From: Gemmatimonadota bacterium | Lineage (GTDB): Bacteria; JBHIER01; G020348925 | Direction: 5' to 3' | DNA: 64,000 bases | NCBI GenBank assembly: GCA_020348925.1 | Contig: CP070758.1 | Coordinates: 4,374,301-4,438,300 of the forward strand | Shown here: piece after piece, positions 41,809-54,547 of the stretch | How the letters are laid out: each line of letters opens with the position of its first letter | Position numbering within the stretch: the first letter of the stretch is position 1 | Notes under the pieces: generated by a model | What the model was told of the DNA's origin: nothing | Database searches by the model: none | The model's input: only the letters and a program-made list of their open reading frames with translations | Made by a program: the position numbers and the translations under genes

Positions 41809-44800
41809 ATGTCGAGACGCCAATCCGTTCTCTTCCTCCTTGTTCTTCTCGTGTCGATACATACAATGAATACCCTTGGTGTTGAAAGCAACGAAAGATT
41901 CATCGACGAATGGCTTGTTCTGGGAGCTTTCACATATGAACAAGAGCAGGAGCGCCTGGCTGTCGATTTCCTTCAGGGCGAACATAATGTCATTCCCTAT
42001 GACGGTGCTGTCACTTCCGGTAAGATCTGGAAAAAATTGCGCATTGATTACAAGGGCAAACTCGATTTTATCACGCAGGGCGACTTTGGCGACACAGAGA
42101 ACACCGTCTGCTACGCGCACGCTTTTATACGGAGTCCGACGGAACACAATGCCTTCCTTCTAGTCGGCAGCGACGATGCCGTAAGAATTTACGTCAACGG
42201 CATTGACGTCCATTATCACGAAATCCCTCGGGGTTGGAGGCCTGATCAGGATACGGTTATGGTTCGTCTCGGAATTGGTTGGAACCGGCTGACGGCCAAA
42301 GTAGCCAATGGTGTCGGAGATTTTGCTCTGTCGGTGCGATTGGTAGACGAGCAATTCGAACCTCTCAGAGATATTCAGTCTCAGAGTGAAAATCCTGCGG
42401 GAAGAGGAGCATTTGAAATGATTTCTGTCAGTCCTCATCTTCGTATCATGGACACGGGGTTTTCCGGTTTCTCGATGACCGGTCAAGATCTCCGCCTCGA
42501 ACTGTTTGCCGACATTCTCAATCTCGGGACCGAAAAACCGGCGAAGGCTGATGTGCGACTGGAGGGCGCCTTTGGCGAAGCCCGGAAATACCGAATAGAG
42601 CGTCATCCATACGAGCGGATTTTGTTTCAATTCACACCGGTGGAAATTGAACGTCTTGCGCATGGCGACAAGCGGTTGAAGATTGAACTTGTGTGGGATG
42701 GACACTTTGACTCGGAACAGCTGATCTTCGAACCGTGGGACGCTCTCAAGAGCCTGCTTGCGGGGATTGAGTTGCGAGGTTGGACATACTGCTCGGGTGA
42801 TGTTGATGTGGCCACCACAGATTATCTCGAAGGGACGAAATGGGTGCCCTACACGCCTGATGGGGTTGTCGAAATACCAACGGGCGTAGTAACCTTTGCG
42901 AATCGTTTTATTCTGCCCCCTGAACTTATCGGTTTTCCGTTATCACTATATATTCCTGAGAAATATGAACACTCGCAATTTTGGATAAACCGAAAAGAGC
43001 AGAAGGTGCAGGAGGGAAAATTGCACCTGGCACAAGCGGAGGAGAACGCACACAGTATGTTCATCATCGCACGGATTGACTCTCTGAAGGGAAAACCGCC
43101 CTTCCTCTCAAAAATCAACCCAACAATGGACTCGTTCTCTCTCTTGAGTGCTGATGCGTACTGGGCGCCGGTCTTCACCGGCGGTCAGGTTGCTCTCATC
43201 GATGAAACCGCATCTGAATTGCTCATCGCCGCTTTACGAGAAGACAAATCGGAGTTTTTCAACCTGGTCGACAGGGAAGCCCGTCGCTTTCATGACGTCT
43301 CCCCACGGATCAAAGAGAACACGATCAATGTCATCGGCAACGCCCATATCGACATGGCCTGGCTGTGGCCCTGGTCCGAGACCGTGGATGTGTGCCAGGT
43401 GACCTTTGAGCGCGCCCTGAAAAATATGGAACACTATCCGGATTTCCTGTACGCACAAAGTCAGGCTCAGGCCTATGCCTGGATGGAAGAACGCCATCCT
43501 GAGCTGTTTGAGAGAATAAGAAAACGAGTTGAGGAGGGAAGATGGATCATCGTCGGCGGAACGTGGGTCGAGCCTGACAACAACCTGCCCAGCGGCGAAT
43601 CACAGGTTCGACAGATTCTTTACGGCAAAAGGTATTTTAAAGAGAAATTCGGCTTTGATGTGAATATCGGGTGGATACCCGATTCCTTCGGATATGCTTG
43701 GACCCTGCCCCAGATCTATCGAAAGTCCGGTTTCAAATACTTTGTTACCCAGAAACTGACCTGGAACGATACCAACGAGTTCCCATACAAAGTCTTCCAC
43801 TGGCAAAGCCCCGACGGCAGCCGGCTCTTTTGCTATTTTCCCTACACATATACTCATGACCTGGGTCCGAGGCGCCTGGCCGAGCAATTTCTTGACTATC
43901 ATAAACGCACCGGATTGAAGGATCAACTTGTCCTCTACGGGACAGGGGACCATGGCGGCGGACCGTCGGAGCAGATGATCGACCGGGTCCAAACCCTCAA
44001 TGAAATTGGCACGTTCCCCACCGTTCGCCAGGCGAACCCCCAGCGTTTCCTTGATAATCTTGAGCAACAGACGGAAGACCTTCCAGTCTGCAATGATGAG
44101 CTATACCTTGAATACCACCGCGGTTGTTATACAACCCAGGCTCTCATCAAAGAGCGGAACCGGCGGTGTGAGATGCTTCTGGAGACAGCGGAGAAACTTG
44201 CCTCGTTTTCGCAGTTACCATATCCCGCCGAGGATCTCGAGAAGGCCTGGAAAAAGACCCTCTTCAACCAATTTCACGACATCCTGCCCGGGTCTTGCAT
44301 CCCCCAGGTGGTGGTCGATGCCAACGTCGACTATGATTGGGTGGAGAAAAAACTGAATGGTATCATCTCAGGGTCTCTCGGGGATATAGCCGGACGAATT
44401 CATATACACAGCAGAAAAGGAATCCCGGACCGGACGGATATGAAAGAGACGATGGAGATTCCTGTCGTTGTATTCAATCCCTTCTCATGGTCTCGAAGCG
44501 ATATTGTAAAAATTGTCCCTGACCTTTCTTCGCTGCAGAATTTCCATATATCCGATCAAAGTGGTATTGAATGTGTGCACCAGGAGTATGGTGATACACT
44601 TCTCTTTTTTGCCAAGGATGTTCCACCTCTTGGATATAAGACCTATTGGATCCTGGCCCCCTCGGCTCGCACTCCTCATAACATAACCAATGCGACTGGA
44701 AACAGTATTTCCAGTCAGTGGTTCCAACTTGACATCAATCCCCAAACGGGCAACTGGGCTAGATTGTATGACAGGAAAAGGCAGGTGGATGTTCTGGAGC

Positions 44801-45732
44801 CTGGCATGGCGGGAAACGTATTGCAGGCTTTTGAGGATGTCCCTGAAGCCTGGGATGCCTGGAATATCGGCTACACCGGAAGGAGTTGGAATATCGAAGA
44901 TGTGGAAAGTATCGAAATCATCGAACAAGGTCCTCTCCGCGCCAGGATGCGTATCGTCCGGACCTTTGGAAAATCCCGTTTCATTCAGGATATCATTCTC
45001 TACAATGATATTGCCAGAATCGATGTTGAAAACCAGATCGACTGGCATGAAGATCATATCCTCTTAAAGGCCGCCTTTCCCGTCAATGTGCGGAGCGACG
45101 TGGTCACCTGTGAAATACCCTATGGCACCATAGATCGGAAGACCATGCCTGTGACCTCTCAGGACAGTGCCAAATTTGAAATCTCGGCCCATAAGTGGAT
45201 TGACATGTCCGATGGTTCATACGGTGTCGGGCTGTTGAACGATAGCAAATATGGCCATGATGTCAGGGGAAACATGATGCGCATCACCCTGCTCCGATCC
45301 CCCAAGTGGCCGGATCCCGGGGCTGATATGGGGCATCATTCTTTCACCTATTCCCTCTATCCCCATGCCGGGGACTGGCGAGAAGCACAGACCCACCGCC
45401 GTGGCTACGAACTGAACTGTCCGCTGATCGCTCGCATTGAATCACCCCACACAGGCGAATTGCCGCCTCAACACTCCTTCGTTTCAATCGAACCGGAAAA
45501 TGTCGTCCTGTCGGTCGCCAAGAAAGCCGAAGACAGTGAGAACCTCATCGTGAGATTCTACGAGCTGTGTGGAACGGAAACACGAGCCGAAATCTCTCTT
45601 CCCCTTTCGTTTCGGGGAGCTCATGAAACAGATCTCCTGGAAAATCTCGGGAGTGAGCTTGAGGTTAAGGGAAACACAATTTATGTTCCCACCAAACCCT
45701 ATGAGATCAAAACGATAACCGTCGAGTTTTAA
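41809..45732 (+). CDS. Exported GH38 alpha-mannosidase
   Basis: A 1307-residue protein with signal peptide, an N-terminal beta region of about 480 residues, then the GH38 catalytic domain. The first zinc ligands are in IGNAHIDMAWLWPW (about 508-521), the nucleophile Asp is in GWIPDSFGYAWTLPQ (about 625), and FNQFHDILPGSCI is the conserved downstream element. The mannosidase middle and C-terminal beta domains follow. It should release mannose from alpha-mannosides such as N-glycans or polysaccharide outside the cytoplasm. The large N-domain, including PA14- or jelly-roll-like parts, is an inference. RBS GGAGG lies before the ATG. Confidence 0.92.
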   Translation: MSRRQSVLFLLVLLVSIHTMNTLGVESNERFIDEWLVLGAFTYEQEQERLAVDFLQGEHNVIPYDGAVTSGKIWKKLRIDYKGKLDFITQGDFGDTENTVCYAHAFIRSPTEHNAFLLVGSDDAVRIYVNGIDVHYHEIPRGWRPDQDTVMVRLGIGWNRLTAKVANGVGDFALSVRLVDEQFEPLRDIQSQSENPAGRGAFEMISVSPHLRIMDTGFSGFSMTGQDLRLELFADILNLGTEKPAKADVRLEGAFGEARKYRIERHPYERILFQFTPVEIERLAHGDKRLKIELVWDGHFDSEQLIFEPWDALKSLLAGIELRGWTYCSGDVDVATTDYLEGTKWVPYTPDGVVEIPTGVVTFANRFILPPELIGFPLSLYIPEKYEHSQFWINRKEQKVQEGKLHLAQAEENAHSMFIIARIDSLKGKPPFLSKINPTMDSFSLLSADAYWAPVFTGGQVALIDETASELLIAALREDKSEFFNLVDREARRFHDVSPRIKENTINVIGNAHIDMAWLWPWSETVDVCQVTFERALKNMEHYPDFLYAQSQAQAYAWMEERHPELFERIRKRVEEGRWIIVGGTWVEPDNNLPSGESQVRQILYGKRYFKEKFGFDVNIGWIPDSFGYAWTLPQIYRKSGFKYFVTQKLTWNDTNEFPYKVFHWQSPDGSRLFCYFPYTYTHDLGPRRLAEQFLDYHKRTGLKDQLVLYGTGDHGGGPSEQMIDRVQTLNEIGTFPTVRQANPQRFLDNLEQQTEDLPVCNDELYLEYHRGCYTTQALIKERNRRCEMLLETAEKLASFSQLPYPAEDLEKAWKKTLFNQFHDILPGSCIPQVVVDANVDYDWVEKKLNGIISGSLGDIAGRIHIHSRKGIPDRTDMKETMEIPVVVFNPFSWSRSDIVKIVPDLSSLQNFHISDQSGIECVHQEYGDTLLFFAKDVPPLGYKTYWILAPSARTPHNITNATGNSISSQWFQLDINPQTGNWARLYDRKRQVDVLEPGMAGNVLQAFEDVPEAWDAWNIGYTGRSWNIEDVESIEIIEQGPLRARMRIVRTFGKSRFIQDIILYNDIARIDVENQIDWHEDHILLKAAFPVNVRSDVVTCEIPYGTIDRKTMPVTSQDSAKFEISAHKWIDMSDGSYGVGLLNDSKYGHDVRGNMMRITLLRSPKWPDPGADMGHHSFTYSLYPHAGDWREAQTHRRGYELNCPLIARIESPHTGELPPQHSFVSIEPENVVLSVAKKAEDSENLIVRFYELCGTETRAEISLPLSFRGAHETDLLENLGSELEVKGNTIYVPTKPYEIKTITVEF

Positions 45733-45880
45733 AATGATTCCAATCTCAATAAAAAAACTTAAATCGATAGGATATTTTCTTGAAAGCGGAGCGCGATGAG
45801 AATATATTTGTTTCTGTTGCGATATTTTTTGAAAACTCCCAATGGATTCTCTGAAACCTGCATGATTGACTGAGTATATA

Positions 45881-47143
45881 ATGAGCAGAGAGAGAGACGA
45901 AGAATACATTGAGGCCAAGTGGAAACTGGAAATGCAACTCCAGGAGGCCACGTCAAAATTGGAGGAGATGGTCAGAAACTGGTCTGACGAGCTGTTGAAA
46001 AAGCACCGGCTTTTAGCTGAGCAACAGGAGCGTGTCCGGGAAGCTTACGAAGCACTCCAGGAAAAAGACCAAAAGCTCGAGGAATCTGAGCGAAAGTACA
46101 GGGCCATCGTCGAGAGTGCGGGAGATGCCATCATCTCACTGGATGCCGAGAATACGGTACTCTCCTGGAACGAAGGCGCTCATGAGGTATTCGGCTATTC
46201 ACAAGATGAGGCGATCGGTAAGAATATCGATGAGCTCCTCATCAAAGAGGATATTAGAGATGAAGCGCTTCAACTGACTCGCAAAGCCCACGGCGGCGAG
46301 AAGATCATGACCTTCGAATCCGTTCGGTATGCGAAGGATGGCAGACCCAAGAACGTCCTCATCACCGCGACACCCCTGAAGGATCCTCAAGGACGCACAT
46401 ATGCAATCTCCCTCATTTACAAGGATATTACACAACTGAAAATTGCGCAGCAGCGCCTCATCCAATCCGAGAAGCAGGCGGCTTTGGGTCTTATTGCGGG
46501 CAGTATCGGCCACGAGTTGAACAACGCTGTGGGTGAAATGCTCATCTACGCGAACCTGCTCAAGAAGAACCCGGAGGATGTCGAGCAGGTGAAGGAACTG
46601 ATCGATACAATTGGTGAGATCGTGGAGAGGTGTTCCATCCACAGTCGCGACCTTCTGTCCCTTTCACGGCCGGCCGAACCTGAGATGAAAACCCTTTCTC
46701 TTGAGACAATCCTCGAGGATACAACCCAGACAATGGTCACGTGTGGTCTCCTGAAACGGTTCACCATTGTCCGAGACTATACTCCCAATCTCCCATCGGT
46801 CCTCGGTGACAGGAATCAGATTGAGCAGATCATCAGAAATCTTGAGATCAATGGTGCTCACGCCATGGGTGATGAGGGAACGCTGACGATAGGGACAAGA
46901 TGTTCGAAGGACGGGCAGTTTGTCGAATTCCTCATCAAAGATACAGGCCACGGAATGTCGCAGGAGATCCGGGAGAAAATCTTCGAACCCTTTTATACGA
47001 CGAAATGCGACGGCGCAGGAACGGGATTAGGCATGCATGTTGTTAAAGGAATTGTGGAACAGCATAAGGGTTATATACGTATCGAAAGTGAGGTGGGCAA
47101 AGGGACGACAATGATTGTCGGCATTCCCACGAGGAAGAGATAA
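45881..47143 (+). CDS. Soluble PAS-domain histidine kinase
   Basis: A 420-residue kinase without membrane segments: a coiled-coil N-terminus (about 5-75), a PAS domain (KYRAIVESAGDAIISLDAEN), HisKA with IGHELNNAVGE, and HATPase with NLEINGAHAMG, DTGHGMS and GAGTGLGMHV. No response regulator is adjacent, so its partner lies elsewhere. The start is uncertain (ATG 45881 or TTG 45866). It is followed four bases later by the ThyX-like gene. Confidence 0.9.
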   Translation: MSRERDEEYIEAKWKLEMQLQEATSKLEEMVRNWSDELLKKHRLLAEQQERVREAYEALQEKDQKLEESERKYRAIVESAGDAIISLDAENTVLSWNEGAHEVFGYSQDEAIGKNIDELLIKEDIRDEALQLTRKAHGGEKIMTFESVRYAKDGRPKNVLITATPLKDPQGRTYAISLIYKDITQLKIAQQRLIQSEKQAALGLIAGSIGHELNNAVGEMLIYANLLKKNPEDVEQVKELIDTIGEIVERCSIHSRDLLSLSRPAEPEMKTLSLETILEDTTQTMVTCGLLKRFTIVRDYTPNLPSVLGDRNQIEQIIRNLEINGAHAMGDEGTLTIGTRCSKDGQFVEFLIKDTGHGMSQEIREKIFEPFYTTKCDGAGTGLGMHVVKGIVEQHKGYIRIESEVGKGTTMIVGIPTRKR

Positions 47144-47147
47144 ACGA

Positions 47148-48647
47148 ATGGAAATTATCTTAGCCGGGTATAATATCGATACGGACGTTTTGCATGAGAT
47201 GATGGTGAAAGCCGGTGACCGTCAGGATGCGACGCCGGAGACGCTTTCGGCGGCCTACGCCCGCATCAGCCGAAGTCCAGAACCGGTCAACGAGCTCCGT
47301 CGTGCTGCTCGGGAAGAGGTGGAGAAATCCAGAAAATCCAACCGAAACATCATCTTCGGTATGGGCCATCATTCAGTGGCCGAGCATGCCGTCTTCAACT
47401 TCGACATCATGGGCGTCTCCCGACTGGCCATCGAGGAGATCGAGAAGTTCCGTCTCAATTCCTACACCGAGAAATCGCAGCGCTATATTACTCTCGGTGA
47501 TGATTTTGTCATTCCCAAAGAGATACTCGACTCGCCGTTCAGAGACATTTTTGTGGACACTGTCAAAAGTCAAAACCGGCTCTATCATAAATTGTACGAA
47601 ACGCTAAAGACCCATGTGTTTGAAAAACATTCGGATATAGCTCAAGAGAAGAAGAACCGTTCAATCCTGGACGGTTGGGCCAAGGAGGATGCGCGCTACG
47701 TCACATCTTTGGCCACCGAAGGGCAATTGGGCGCAACCTTGAACGCCCGGAATCTGGAACTTCTCTTTCGGCGCTTCGCATCGCATGAACTTTCCGAGGT
47801 TCGGGAGATTGGCGAAAAGATGTTTCGCAAAGTGGAGAAGGTCGCACCTTCGATCATCCTCTTCACTGAAGCCAACGACCACGATCAGAAAACCTATCCA
47901 GCCCTCAGAAATCTCGCGGTAGAAAGAATGGAGAGGGATCATTCCGATTCCCAAAAATTTTTACCGGATGATGTCACCATGGTCAATCACACCGCCGACG
48001 CGGACAACATCAGCGTCGCGACACTGCTACACACCTCCACGCATCAACCTTTTGCACAATGCCTTGACAGAACGAGGAAAATGAGCTTCGGTCAAAAGAG
48101 GGAAATGGTGAAGGCGGCGTGCCAGCATATGGAACTGTATGACAGCGCGCTGCGAGAATTCGAATACGTCGATGCGACCTTCGATCTCATCGTCTCCGCT
48201 TCCTGTTTTGCACAGTTGAAGCGCCATAGAATGGTTACTCTCACCTGTCAGGGATATGATCCGGAGTTACATGTAACCATCCCGGAGTCGATCACCGCCA
48301 CAGGGATGGAAAAAGATTTTCTGGAACTTATTACAAAAACAGAGGATGTGTATAAAATAATTCATCGTCAATTACCCGCAATCGCTCCATACATTCTGAC
48401 AAACGCCCATCGGAAACGTGTTTTGCTCAAGGTCAATGCCAGGGAGCTTTACCACATGTCGCGGCTCCGCCAGGACGCCACGGCCCAGTGGGACATTCGG
48501 CAGTTGACGGGCAGAATTGTAGCTCAGGCCAAGGATGTTATGCCTCTCACGCTTCTTATTGCCGGCGGCAAGGACGAGTACCCGCAAATTTATGAAGACG
48601 TATACGGACATTCGCCAAAAGTCATGGAGGCGGAATTACCGACGTAG
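47148..48647 (+). CDS. Double-length ThyX-like (FAD-dependent thymidylate synthase family) protein
   Basis: A 499-residue protein about twice the usual ThyX length. The N-half has GMGHHSVAEHAVFNFDIMGV then SRLAIEEIEKFRLNSYTEKS and QRY, resembling the ThyX region RHRxxSxNExSxRY but with KFR for RHR and Thr for Asn. The C-half has QLKRHRMVTLTCQGYDPELH and a repeat of the fold. Each half thus keeps a different part of the split motif. Long proteins of this type are annotated as ThyX family; whether they make dTMP is unproven. It follows the kinase gene after four bases. Confidence 0.8.
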   Translation: MEIILAGYNIDTDVLHEMMVKAGDRQDATPETLSAAYARISRSPEPVNELRRAAREEVEKSRKSNRNIIFGMGHHSVAEHAVFNFDIMGVSRLAIEEIEKFRLNSYTEKSQRYITLGDDFVIPKEILDSPFRDIFVDTVKSQNRLYHKLYETLKTHVFEKHSDIAQEKKNRSILDGWAKEDARYVTSLATEGQLGATLNARNLELLFRRFASHELSEVREIGEKMFRKVEKVAPSIILFTEANDHDQKTYPALRNLAVERMERDHSDSQKFLPDDVTMVNHTADADNISVATLLHTSTHQPFAQCLDRTRKMSFGQKREMVKAACQHMELYDSALREFEYVDATFDLIVSASCFAQLKRHRMVTLTCQGYDPELHVTIPESITATGMEKDFLELITKTEDVYKIIHRQLPAIAPYILTNAHRKRVLLKVNARELYHMSRLRQDATAQWDIRQLTGRIVAQAKDVMPLTLLIAGGKDEYPQIYEDVYGHSPKVMEAELPT

Positions 48648-50437: not shown

Positions 50438-53161
50438 ATGAATCACTTTTCACATGTTCTCTTCTCTCTGCTTTCGATTGTTTTACTTTTTCAGAGCCCT
50501 CGGGTGAATGGTGTCGAGGATGAAGAAGTGAAAGGTGTTTCGGGGAAAAAGCTCGTCGAGGAAACCTGGATGAGCACCTTTGTGAACGATGTTCAGGTCG
50601 GCTATTCCCACATGAAGACATACACCATCAAATACCATGGTCATGACGCGCTTCAGTTCGTATCCGACCGCTTGATGAGAGCCAAAATTCGCGGCCACAA
50701 GTACGAAACATCCGGTTCGACAACGCTCATTGTCAGTCCCAAGTATGAACCCCTCTATTTCAAAGTGGTGAGAGGGTCCGGGCGACACGAAATGTCTGCA
50801 GAGGGTTCCAGGGACGAAGATATGATGATTGCCGAGAAACACTCACCGTGGACGTCGAGTCAGGTGAACATTCCTCTGGAACCGAACGTCTTTTTCCCGG
50901 GGCATGAGTTGAAAGCCATGGAGGACACCGAAATCGAGCTCGGGGTCAAGTATATTTTTAAAATTATTGATATTGAGGATCTTCAAGTGAAAGAGTGGCC
51001 GATGATGCTCCTGGAGCGCAGACCGTTTGAACCCGACAGCATTCTTATCTTTCCCGAGGCGGAGGGACCACTCCATGTCGAGAAATGGTCTGTGGGCGAC
51101 AACATCATCCAGTATTGGAAAGACGGCACAGGAGCGACATGGCGGAGAGAGGAAGGAAATCAATTCAGCCTTCGAACGACCCAAGAGAAGGCGATCGATT
51201 TTGCTCCCGAACTGGATATCTGGGAGAACATCGCCTTCAAGAGTGACAAGGTGATTCTCAACTCGAAAAAGACATCTGAAATGAAGATCCAGTTTAAAGT
51301 CAAAGGTATTGCCTGTGGAAATATCTTCGGGGAGGATGAAAGATTGCGCGTCGTTGAAACCACGGAGAAAGAGGACACCTGTATCGTTGTTGTCCATTCA
51401 ACGGTTCCTGCTCTCAGTGAGAGTGCAGCCGTCGATCTCCCTGTCGATGAATCTGATTTTGAAGCGTATCTTGGGGCGACACCATATATTCAATCGGACG
51501 ATACGACCATCGTAAACTTAGCCCAAGAGATTGTTGGGGAGGAGCGAAATGCCTACAAGGTTGCCGTGAAGCTGTGCGAATGGGTCCACTTCAATATTGA
51601 TTACCGTTTTCTGTTCTCCAATGTGACCGCCCGGGATGTCCTGAAAACCAAGTCCGGCGACTGCAGCGAGTTCTCCCTCCTGTACACGGCTATGGCCAGA
51701 GCCGCAGGTGTTCCCACCAGAGAATGTCAGGGGATCGTTTACGGGAGTGACGGGAAGTTTTACCGCCACGCCTGGATCGAAAGTTGGGTCGGCGAGTGGG
51801 TCACCATGGACCCCACGTGGAACGAACTCATCGCCGATGCCACTCACCTCAAGTTTGGTGAAATGTACGAAAGTACGCCGAAGTCGATTACACCCGTGGA
51901 TATTCGAGTGTTGGATTATGCGTTTGAGACGGAGCGTCATACAGTGCGGATGAGTGACATTGACCTGAACCTTGGTTTCGATTATAACGATTCCCTTTCG
52001 AAAAAATACAGTTCTCTAAAAAAGAAGCTGATTGAACTCAAAAAAAGTACTGGCAGTGGAACGACATCGATTGAGAGATTCAACGCCTATCGACAGGAAT
52101 TGTCCGATTTTATTTCCAGATACTCCATGAGCATATCCGCGGTGAATGCACGACACGACATAGCAGAGACATACTTCTTCACAGAGGACTATGACAAAGC
52201 CATCGCAGAATTGGAAGCCTTTATTGATGCCTACTATTATCTCAACGAAGAGCTGACAGGTTCTTCACTCCATAGAATCGGTGAGTGTTACCTTCGTATG
52301 AAGAGATACGACGAGGCTCTGAGTACATTCAGAGAAGTCAAGGAGCGGTACCCCCAGAGCAGAGCCGTTGACAACATGGTCATTGACGTCGAAGAGATAG
52401 CCCATTACCTCTGGGACCGGAGCCGATACCCTGAGGCGATTGAACAATATGAGGAAATGATGAATCTCTTCCCGTCACGAAAGACAGTCTACCAGGAAAA
52501 ATTGGCTGACATCTATTACAGTCAGGGAGAGTACGATAAGGCCCTTAACCAGTATGATGATATGATTGCCCTCTACCCTGATCGCAAAACGATTTACAAT
52601 GAACAGATTGCCCTTCTCTATCGCCGTCTGGGTCGCATCGAAGATGCCGTCTCGAAATTTGAAGAAATGATTGAGCTCTTTCCTGAAAGAGAGATGATCT
52701 ATCGGGAGCAGATTGCGGATACGTACAACAAGGCAAAACGTTTTGATGAAGCCGTCGTCACCTACGAAGAGCTTGCCAGACTTTTTCCTGAAAGGGAAAC
52801 AATCTATTTTGGACAGATCGCCAAAATATTCCAGAACCAGGGGAATTATCAGAGAGCCATCACTCAGTACGAACAATTGGCGAAACTCCATCCCGTGAAG
52901 ACTAAGATTTGCTATGAGCAGATTGCAAAACTGTATCTTGGGCAGCAGATGTACGCTGAAGCAATTGCCCAATACGAATATTTAATCGAGCTGTTTCCCG
53001 AGCGTAAGATGATCTATCAGGAACGCATAGCTTCCGTCTATGAGAAGGAACAAGCATACGATAAAGCCATATCTCAGTATCAGGAGCTCATCCGCAATTA
53101 TCCCGAGCGGGAGAAAATATACACGGATAAAATCGAAAAGCTTTCACACCAGGAACCCTGA
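50438..53161 (+). CDS. Exported transglutaminase-like protein with C-terminal TPR array
   Basis: A 907-residue protein with a signal peptide, a beta-rich N-region (about 25-340), a transglutaminase-like core with Cys in TKSGDCSEFSLLYTAMARAA, His in FYRHAWIESW and Asp in WVTMDPTWNE (about 400-465), a linker, and about ten TPR units (about 560-905) of 34 residues. The catalytic triad is complete, so protease or cross-linking activity is possible. The TPR repeats are very regular (YDEALSTFREVKERYPQSR type). It follows the Nudix gene by 21 bases. The target is unknown. Confidence 0.88.
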   Translation: MNHFSHVLFSLLSIVLLFQSPRVNGVEDEEVKGVSGKKLVEETWMSTFVNDVQVGYSHMKTYTIKYHGHDALQFVSDRLMRAKIRGHKYETSGSTTLIVSPKYEPLYFKVVRGSGRHEMSAEGSRDEDMMIAEKHSPWTSSQVNIPLEPNVFFPGHELKAMEDTEIELGVKYIFKIIDIEDLQVKEWPMMLLERRPFEPDSILIFPEAEGPLHVEKWSVGDNIIQYWKDGTGATWRREEGNQFSLRTTQEKAIDFAPELDIWENIAFKSDKVILNSKKTSEMKIQFKVKGIACGNIFGEDERLRVVETTEKEDTCIVVVHSTVPALSESAAVDLPVDESDFEAYLGATPYIQSDDTTIVNLAQEIVGEERNAYKVAVKLCEWVHFNIDYRFLFSNVTARDVLKTKSGDCSEFSLLYTAMARAAGVPTRECQGIVYGSDGKFYRHAWIESWVGEWVTMDPTWNELIADATHLKFGEMYESTPKSITPVDIRVLDYAFETERHTVRMSDIDLNLGFDYNDSLSKKYSSLKKKLIELKKSTGSGTTSIERFNAYRQELSDFISRYSMSISAVNARHDIAETYFFTEDYDKAIAELEAFIDAYYYLNEELTGSSLHRIGECYLRMKRYDEALSTFREVKERYPQSRAVDNMVIDVEEIAHYLWDRSRYPEAIEQYEEMMNLFPSRKTVYQEKLADIYYSQGEYDKALNQYDDMIALYPDRKTIYNEQIALLYRRLGRIEDAVSKFEEMIELFPEREMIYREQIADTYNKAKRFDEAVVTYEELARLFPERETIYFGQIAKIFQNQGNYQRAITQYEQLAKLHPVKTKICYEQIAKLYLGQQMYAEAIAQYEYLIELFPERKMIYQERIASVYEKEQAYDKAISQYQELIRNYPEREKIYTDKIEKLSHQEP

Positions 53162-53311: not shown

Positions 53312-54547
53312 ATGGAAACAACAGTGAAACAGATACGTGACTGCATTAACGAATTGAAGGACGAAATCGTCGAGTTCACAAGCCGCATGATCAGCATCCC
53401 GACCGTCAATCCACCAGGTAAAAATTATGGGGAGATCGTCCGGCTATTCAGTGAGAAGCTCTCGCGCATGGGGATCGACTGGCAGGAGATCCATGTCCCA
53501 AAGGAAAGATTGGGAGAGCTTGCACCCAAGGGAGAGGATCTGCCGAGATCCTCCATCGTGGGCCACTGGGGTGAGGGTGAAAAGGAGGTGCACCTTCACG
53601 GCCATTACGATGTCGTGCCGGCTGCCTCCGCCGAACAATTTCACCCTCGTGTATCAAACGGCAGATTGTACGGACGCGGAGCCGCTGACATGAAGGGAGG
53701 GCTGGCCGTCATCCTGTTTACGCTTCAGACACTCATGAAGTGCGAAACAAAACTCAACGGTACTCTCTCGTTCTCCTTCACCCCGGACGAAGAGACGGGA
53801 GGTACGGCAGGATTGAAGTACCTTCTTGATGAAGGACACATTAACCGGAACATAATGGGTGTCCTTGATCCCGAACCCTCCGGCGGTGATATCATAAACG
53901 GCAGCAGGGGGGCTCTCTCTTTTGATGTCGTTTTTAAGGGCAGGCCAAGCCACGTCATGCTACAACACTTGGGAGTGAACGCATTCGAAAAAATGATCGA
54001 GGTTGCCGATGCTTTCAAGGTTTTGAGGCAAGAGATAGAGGGCAGGAGGACGGCGTACAGAACAAAGCCTCCGGAGGCGAACCGTTCGACGCTACTGCTT
54101 GGTGGACTCAGTGGGGGTGGGACGAACTTCAATATTGTTCCGGACCGGGCCTTCTTTACCGTGGACCGAAGATTCAATCCGGAAGAGAAAATAGAGGATG
54201 TTAAGAAAGAGCTCGAGGAACGGTTGTCATTTTTTCGACAAGAGGGCATCGAAATCGAAACGCACGTCTTCCAGGAGGGCAGTGCATCCTATACGAATGA
54301 AGATGAGCCCCTGTGTCAAATTCTATCACAGGTCGTAGGAAGCGTAAAAGGAAGGAAGCCTGAATTTTTTCTATGTCCGGGATTACTGGAAACTCGGTTT
54401 TTTGTGGAGACGGGAATTCCTGCTGTGATATTCGGACCTGGTCTTCTGGAGGAGGCTCACGGTCCGAATGAGTTCGTCTCAATTGATGACATCTTTGACT
54501 GTATTGAGATTTTTGCTCTGACCGCTCTCGAGCTTTTGGGGAGGTAG
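53312..54547 (+). CDS. M20-family peptidase (ArgE/DapE/ACY1 type)
   Basis: A 411-residue zinc peptidase. Metal-binding motifs are HLHGHYDVVPA, GRGAADMKGG and TPDEETGGTAG, with the dimerisation domain after about residue 190 (GRPSHVMLQHLGVN). Family members include succinyl-diaminopimelate desuccinylase, acetylornithine deacetylase and dipeptidases; the exact one cannot be set from sequence. No biosynthetic neighbours are present. It is convergent with the first STAS gene. Confidence 0.9.
   Translation: METTVKQIRDCINELKDEIVEFTSRMISIPTVNPPGKNYGEIVRLFSEKLSRMGIDWQEIHVPKERLGELAPKGEDLPRSSIVGHWGEGEKEVHLHGHYDVVPAASAEQFHPRVSNGRLYGRGAADMKGGLAVILFTLQTLMKCETKLNGTLSFSFTPDEETGGTAGLKYLLDEGHINRNIMGVLDPEPSGGDIINGSRGALSFDVVFKGRPSHVMLQHLGVNAFEKMIEVADAFKVLRQEIEGRRTAYRTKPPEANRSTLLLGGLSGGGTNFNIVPDRAFFTVDRRFNPEEKIEDVKKELEERLSFFRQEGIEIETHVFQEGSASYTNEDEPLCQILSQVVGSVKGRKPEFFLCPGLLETRFFVETGIPAVIFGPGLLEEAHGPNEFVSIDDIFDCIEIFALTALELLGR

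Follow-up and report, generated by a model that had tools for sequence, protein, structure and literature searches.

The window analysed here is a stretch of 64,000 nucleotides of contig CP070758.1 from a Gemmatimonadota bacterium. An open reading frame on its forward strand (+), running from ATG to stop at positions 47148-48647, encodes a protein of 499 residues and 57 kDa; all features of this gene are given on the same strand. The purine-rich AGGAAGAG at 47132..47139, recognised by eye, is a candidate ribosome-binding site. The ATG lies 4 bases past the stop codon of an ORF for a PAS-histidine kinase (45866-47143), with which the gene possibly shares one transcript. Elsewhere in the window are genes for a family 38 glycosyl hydrolase of the alpha-mannosidase type (41809-45732, 1307 aa), a transglutaminase-core protein with many TPR repeats (50438-53161) and an M20 peptidase (53312-54547).

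Profile searches place the 499-residue protein in the ThyX family. Pfam Thy1 (PF02511) matches it in two stretches with a total of 201.8 bits (E 1.2e-59; cut-off 24.8 bits), and the ThyX equivalog TIGR02170 scores 133.2 bits against a curated cut-off of 87.9; both scores thus exceed the curated cut-offs. With the profile matches converted to window positions, the N-half Thy1 domain lies at 47232..47852 (120.6 bits) and the C-half Thy1 domain at 47979..48545 (85.5 bits). The chain therefore carries two Thy1 domains, the layout of a tandem, domain-duplicated ThyX. An AlphaFold2 model of the single chain, calculated with an input alignment of 19 tandem proteins, reached a mean pLDDT of 86.4 and a pTM of 0.85; its low-confidence residues 265-270 fall in the region between both matches (47853..47978). 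Model residues 1-245 superimpose on M. tuberculosis ThyX (3gwc_A; Z 17.4, rmsd 2.6 Å over 211 residues) and residues 272-479 on T. maritima ThyX (5iot_B; Z 13.4, rmsd 2.3 Å over 191 residues). The rows beneath those of ThyX in the structural list were weak and unrelated (Z ≤5.4) and were disregarded. A ThyX fold is thus predicted for both halves, and the two ThyX-like domains proposed in a first-pass annotation, which also called for a structure prediction, are recovered by profile and by model.

Residue numbers in both halves follow a T. maritima ThyX fragment that appears in a PDB alignment. In the N-half, the T. maritima residues H53, E86, S88, R90, Y91 and R147 are retained as H74 (47367..47369), E108, S110, R112, Y113 and R183 (47694..47696). 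Q75, R78 and H79 are replaced by E97, K100 and F101, so that the RHR motif reads K100-F101-R102 (47445..47453) with its last Arg as sole remnant. The loop S105-Y-T-E108-K-S110-Q-R112-Y113 (47460..47486), which carries the equivalents of E86, S88, R90 and Y91, is present. This is what the first-pass annotation had described: an N-half that keeps Ser-x-x-Glu-x-Ser-x-Arg-Tyr and has lost the RHR. The C-half retains Q75, R78, H79, R80, N163, R165 and R174 as Q356, R359, H360, R361, N430, R432 and R441; Q356 to R359-H360-R361 lie at 48213..48230 and R441 at 48468..48470. Its S88, R90, Y91 and R147 are replaced by G369, D371, P372 and P414, the first three within a degenerate serine loop, T364-P372 (48237..48263), that also includes C367. 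The C-half had been said to keep the RHR and to have lost the rest. The RHR is indeed kept and the serine loop lost, but Q75, R174, N163 and R165 are kept as well. The continuous RHR-x7-S motif of single-domain ThyX is broken between the halves (KFR...S in the N-half, RHR...G in the C-half), so the protein was not filed as an ordinary single-domain ThyX. S88, R90, Y91 and R147 are found in the N-half only, and the full set of R78, H79, R80 and R174 is confined to the C-half.

Ordinary ThyX is described as carrying all residues on one chain and forming a homotetramer with four equal sites (PMC4913046). In M. tuberculosis ThyX, the dUMP residues are, in subunit A, Arg95 and Arg199 and, in subunit C, Arg87, Ser105 and Arg107, Tyr108 of the latter subunit serving as a lid; the FAD residues are the RHR of subunit A and Ser71 and Arg190 of subunit B (PMC6514825). 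In PBCV-1 ThyX, Gln75 and Arg182 are reported on one monomer and Ser88 on the other (PMC3498832), and in T. maritima ThyX H53 belongs to a third monomer (PMC11940539). By alignment, the published A residues are equivalent to T. maritima R78 and R174, and the C residues to S88, R90 and Y91. We label as role A R78 of the RHR, R174 and Q75, as role C S88, R90 and Y91, and as role B H53 or T55. With these labels, H74 falls under role B, the S105-Y113 loop under role C, and Q356-R361 and R441 under role A. The view that the C-half retains the role-A side of the site and the N-half its role-C side is supported by this agreement with the published subunit roles.

The same layout recurs in full-length relatives from the 192 genomes sampled, from plasmid records, a phage record, a WOR-3 MAG and viral contigs. 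Examples are L005 (57% identical), L003 (53%) and the viral contig L157 (53%), all full-length. A scan of genome contigs gave one relative (L003, the WOR-3 MAG). Nine plasmid records and one phage record have a single place with a cover of at least 80%. The viral search gave no match with a single protein as query and 28 loci with alignment A1. An alignment was built from 71 single-domain ThyX and both halves of 73 tandem proteins. The 73 comprise 39 from the 192-genome sample, L003, 6 from plasmids, 2 from phages and 25 further Chlamydiota proteins; six pairs among them, all from Chlamydiota, are >90% identical. The counts exclude the gene itself found again (L001, L002), repeats of L032 and L044 (L047, L130), fragments (L014, L031, L081, L082), a pilus ATPase locus (L064), an antisense ORF in L045, a ThyX with an intein (L070) and two single-domain proteins with a long extension (L079, L080).

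S88, R90, Y91 and R147 are each present in 73/73 N-halves; in the C-halves S88 occurs once (1/73) and the other three in 0/73. All four together are thus found in 73/73 N-halves and 0/73 C-halves. Conversely, R78, H79, R80 and R174 are each present in 73/73 C-halves, and 0/73 N-halves hold all four. The composite residue set is complete in every one of the 73 tandem proteins and in a single half of none (0/73), whereas 67 of the 71 single-domain ThyX hold all seven of R78, H79, R80, S88, R90, R147 and R174 in one chain. The same split was read in 19/19 tandem proteins from viral contigs; one of these, L168, is a near-copy of L083 among the 73 (99.6% identical), and another, L178, is 91.6% identical to L085. 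One could suppose that a decaying gene or an assembly artefact has joined two damaged copies by chance, since each half does lack catalytic residues that single-domain ThyX keep. However, the protein is encoded by one open frame, the losses are identical in 73/73 proteins and no other thymidylate synthase was found in the genome. Full-length relatives with the same layout at 53-57% identity place the split beyond chance and assembly error, and we consider this explanation vanishingly improbable.

Individual positions vary. Among the N-halves, L019 still has an RHR (without R174) and L018 reads RSR; among the C-halves, L030 still has Ser at 88 and L161 Arg at 90. The position of M. tuberculosis Ser71, T55 in T. 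maritima, is Ser or Thr in 73/73 N-halves and 0/73 C-halves. H53 is replaced by Asp in 33/73 N-halves, and the Q75 position of the C-halves is Gln in 31/73 and Asp in 40/73. R165 is kept near-equally across both halves (59/73 vs 58/73) and does not discriminate between them. The position of M. tuberculosis Arg87 is Arg in 32/73 N-halves and 59/71 single-domain proteins, and Arg is absent among the letters listed for C-halves. Wherever the N-half has Asp53 (33/73, the Chlamydia-type tandems), the C-half carries Asp75 and His180. PDB entries 4kar and 4kas are engineered H53D forms of T. maritima ThyX.

The source of dTMP was then considered in the genome carrying the window (5.04 Mb, one contig, estimated 96.3% complete), which is the only member of its phylum in the genome set searched. 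Profile searches of this genome found no thyA, no second thyX beyond the tandem gene and no DHFR of the PF00186 type; a dTMP kinase is present. The check for thyA or a normal thyX suggested by the first-pass annotation therefore returned neither, and the normal thymidylate synthase that would have spoken against its proposal was not found. A PF00265 thymidine-kinase match (23.1 bits, cut-off 20.6) raised the possibility of thymidine salvage. It was rejected: the ORF scores 174.2 bits with T2SSE against 21.8 bits with TK, and is a P-loop false positive from a secretion/pilus ATPase.

In the 192-genome sample, ThyX is present in 140 genomes (40 tandem, 98 other, with G098 and G126 left unclassed and G078 assigned to the tandem class despite a break across two contigs) and absent from 52. 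None of the 40 tandem-ThyX genomes has a PF00303 (thyA) match, partial matches included. Full-length thyA was found in 2/98 genomes with other ThyX and in 25/52 without ThyX, and partial PF00303 matches in 9/98 and 14/52 respectively. Comparison of 0/40 with 25/52 gives p = 2.7e-8 (Fisher), a descriptive value because the groups were named post hoc and the genomes are non-independent. A tandem gene lies near a dCTP deaminase gene in a Euzebya plasmid, and in phage Tunturi_5 another is the immediate neighbour of a dCMP deaminase gene.

These data bear on the alternative of a repurposed flavoenzyme, also raised in the first-pass annotation, in which the protein would bind FAD and a nucleotide but catalyze another reaction, such as a different uracil methylation or NADPH oxidation. 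The active site is rearranged, and PolB, a relative of ThyX, methylates UMP according to PDB titles and PMC5003785. Against this, all known dUMP-acting residues are kept in the composite, none of the 40 tandem genomes of the sample matches thyA, and the apparently tandem ThyX of C. trachomatis is reported as active. With no other dTMP source found in its own genome, we set repurposing aside as improbable.

The case of Chlamydia merits description. In a sample of Chlamydiota, 86/92 genomes have a Thy1 match and 83 of these 86 have two; proteins were read from 26 of the 86 ThyX-bearing genomes. The MOMP family scores 661-767 bits in five genomes of ~1.1 Mb that belong to a single genus; from these scores and sizes we infer that the genus is Chlamydia. 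Four of these MOMP-bearing genomes (L147-L150) encode a tandem ThyX with the split site. Moreover, G116, the one genome among the 192 with chlamydial outer-membrane proteins, carries the tandem L029. C. pecorum is described as lacking thyA and folA, and sequenced Chlamydiaceae as carrying thyX (PMC3932018); C. trachomatis is tabulated without tdk and thyA and with folA (PMC4913046). PMC3498832 describes an assay of the isolated C. trachomatis enzyme by NADPH oxidation and a drop in its activity with compound 2E04. C. trachomatis ThyX appears to be tandem like that of its relatives; if so, its activity implies that a ThyX of the tandem form is catalytically functional. The ThyX of the Chlamydia-type genomes shares the tandem layout and the split with the window protein, but has Asp at H53 and Q75 where the window protein has His74 and Gln356. 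A paper by Griffin et al. (2005) is reportedly devoted to C. trachomatis ThyX (CtThyX).

Taken together, the residues suggest the following scheme. Tandem duplication and fusion of a ThyX gene would have come first, and each half would later have lost the residues on one side of the site, leaving the C-half fit for role A only and the N-half for roles B and C. As roles B and C come from different subunits in ThyX and both fall to the N-halves, a complete site would need two tandem chains, combining the C-half of one chain with the N-halves of both chains in the dimer. The resulting two-chain assembly would be a pseudo-tetramer in which two sites are live and two dead, and each chain would account for one FAD. 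The chemistry would remain that of ordinary ThyX, in which dUMP and methylene-folate are converted via FAD to dTMP. We infer quaternary structure, FAD number and catalysis by the window protein, the pseudo-tetramer geometry being deduced from its residues. A homotetramer with four equal sites is predicted not to apply. The internal pseudo-dimer with a single functional site that the first-pass annotation envisaged finds support, as one site for each chain, in the residue complementarity of 73/73 proteins and in the published subunit roles.

An active tandem enzyme might instead complete its site within one chain or by some other packing. The confident single-chain model (pTM 0.85) would be compatible with this. 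However, roles B (T55 and mostly H53) and C are both on the N-halves and belong to separate subunits in ThyX, so one chain would lack one of them; we regard such an architecture as unlikely. Our preferred reading, to which we assign a probability of roughly 80%, is that the thymidylate synthase of this genome is a fused duplicate ThyX with complementary losses that works as a two-chain pseudo-tetramer with two live sites. Some observations weigh against it. H53 and Q75 are often Asp, so that the role residues are incompletely kept, and R165, which belongs to role B, does not discriminate between the halves. The RHR left in the L019 N-half and the Ser88 left in the L030 C-half also count against it. 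In addition, PDB titles describe a single-domain ThyX from C. glutamicum as dispensable for thymidylate synthesis, and homology alone is thus no proof of function.

Duplication as such is known. A domain duplication of ThyX in Chloroflexi was noted in 2009 and called uncharacterised (Valas and Bourne, PMC3224940), and databases already label such tandem proteins ThyX. The Chloroflexi proteins share the two-domain layout, and that of Thermomicrobium roseum (L087) shows the split, on which the relevant passage of PMC3224940 is silent; Thermomicrobium-type ThyX also differs from the window protein in branching apart from it in the tree. Compared with T. maritima TM0449 and M. tuberculosis ThyX, the window protein has the same fold in each half and the full set of dUMP and FAD residues over both halves; unlike single-domain ThyX, it shares these residues between two fused halves. 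No account of the complementary split was found in the passages covered of the open literature, and PDB sequence searches gave no ThyX chain of >270 residues. The trypanosomatid deoxyhypusine synthase offers a parallel: it pairs a live with a dead copy, duplication having made a shared-site homo-oligomer asymmetric. In tandem ThyX, in contrast, both copies have lost complementary sides and are fused. We rate the split-site architecture and its constancy as unexpected to a specialist.

The tandem form accounts for 40 of the 140 ThyX-bearing genomes of the wide sample. The descriptions of ThyX chemistry and inhibitor design consulted here (PMC4913046, PMC6514825) take as their basis a homotetramer whose four sites are equal. 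If tandem dimers do hold two composite sites, the C. trachomatis enzyme of the inhibitor screen differs in make-up from the solved structures. Tandem ThyX is also a clean natural experiment, in which duplication and fusion can fix complementary losses. A broader and more doubtful proposal is that tandem ThyX forms an ancient, widespread class in which an obligate two-site pseudo-heterotetramer arose from a four-site homotetramer, with the dead sites reused in some lineages for regulatory nucleotide binding or channelling, and a Chlamydia drug-target geometry unlike single-domain structures.

A tree of 99 rows was calculated with the motif columns left out, from 33/73 tandem proteins, 32/71 single-domain proteins and the T. 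maritima fragment. The N-halves of 28 proteins form one clade and 28 C-halves another, each with 100/99 support. Within this main clade, L021, L023 and L083 take different places in the N and C trees: their N-halves stand beside the Chlamydia-type (100/99) and their C-halves beside the group of the window protein (92/72). The Thermomicrobium-type trio and L030/L090 branch apart from the main clade. The C-halves of L030/L090 fall within the single-domain ThyX; the Thermomicrobium-type N-halves are weakly supported as neighbours of single-domain proteins. Convergent origins were considered and the claim was dropped, because AU tests do not reject a single clade for all C-halves (p-AU 0.466) or for all N-halves (p-AU 0.481); the tree establishes neither one origin nor several.

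Finally, large additional segments were observed in some ThyX proteins. L080 (139-2955) and L079 (748-2256) have one Thy1 domain preceded by N-terminal stretches of ~660 and ~220 residues, respectively, without a Pfam match. The single-domain ThyX of L070 (758-2557) has an insert of ~345 residues matching Intein_splicing and HNH. The tandem ThyX proteins of viral contigs L171 (1013-3721) and L183 (1073-3802) reach 903 and 910 aa; just ahead of the active-site motif, their N-half contains a large insert with a domain of the LAGLIDADG type. This insert is probably an intein, located in the half that retains the serine loop.
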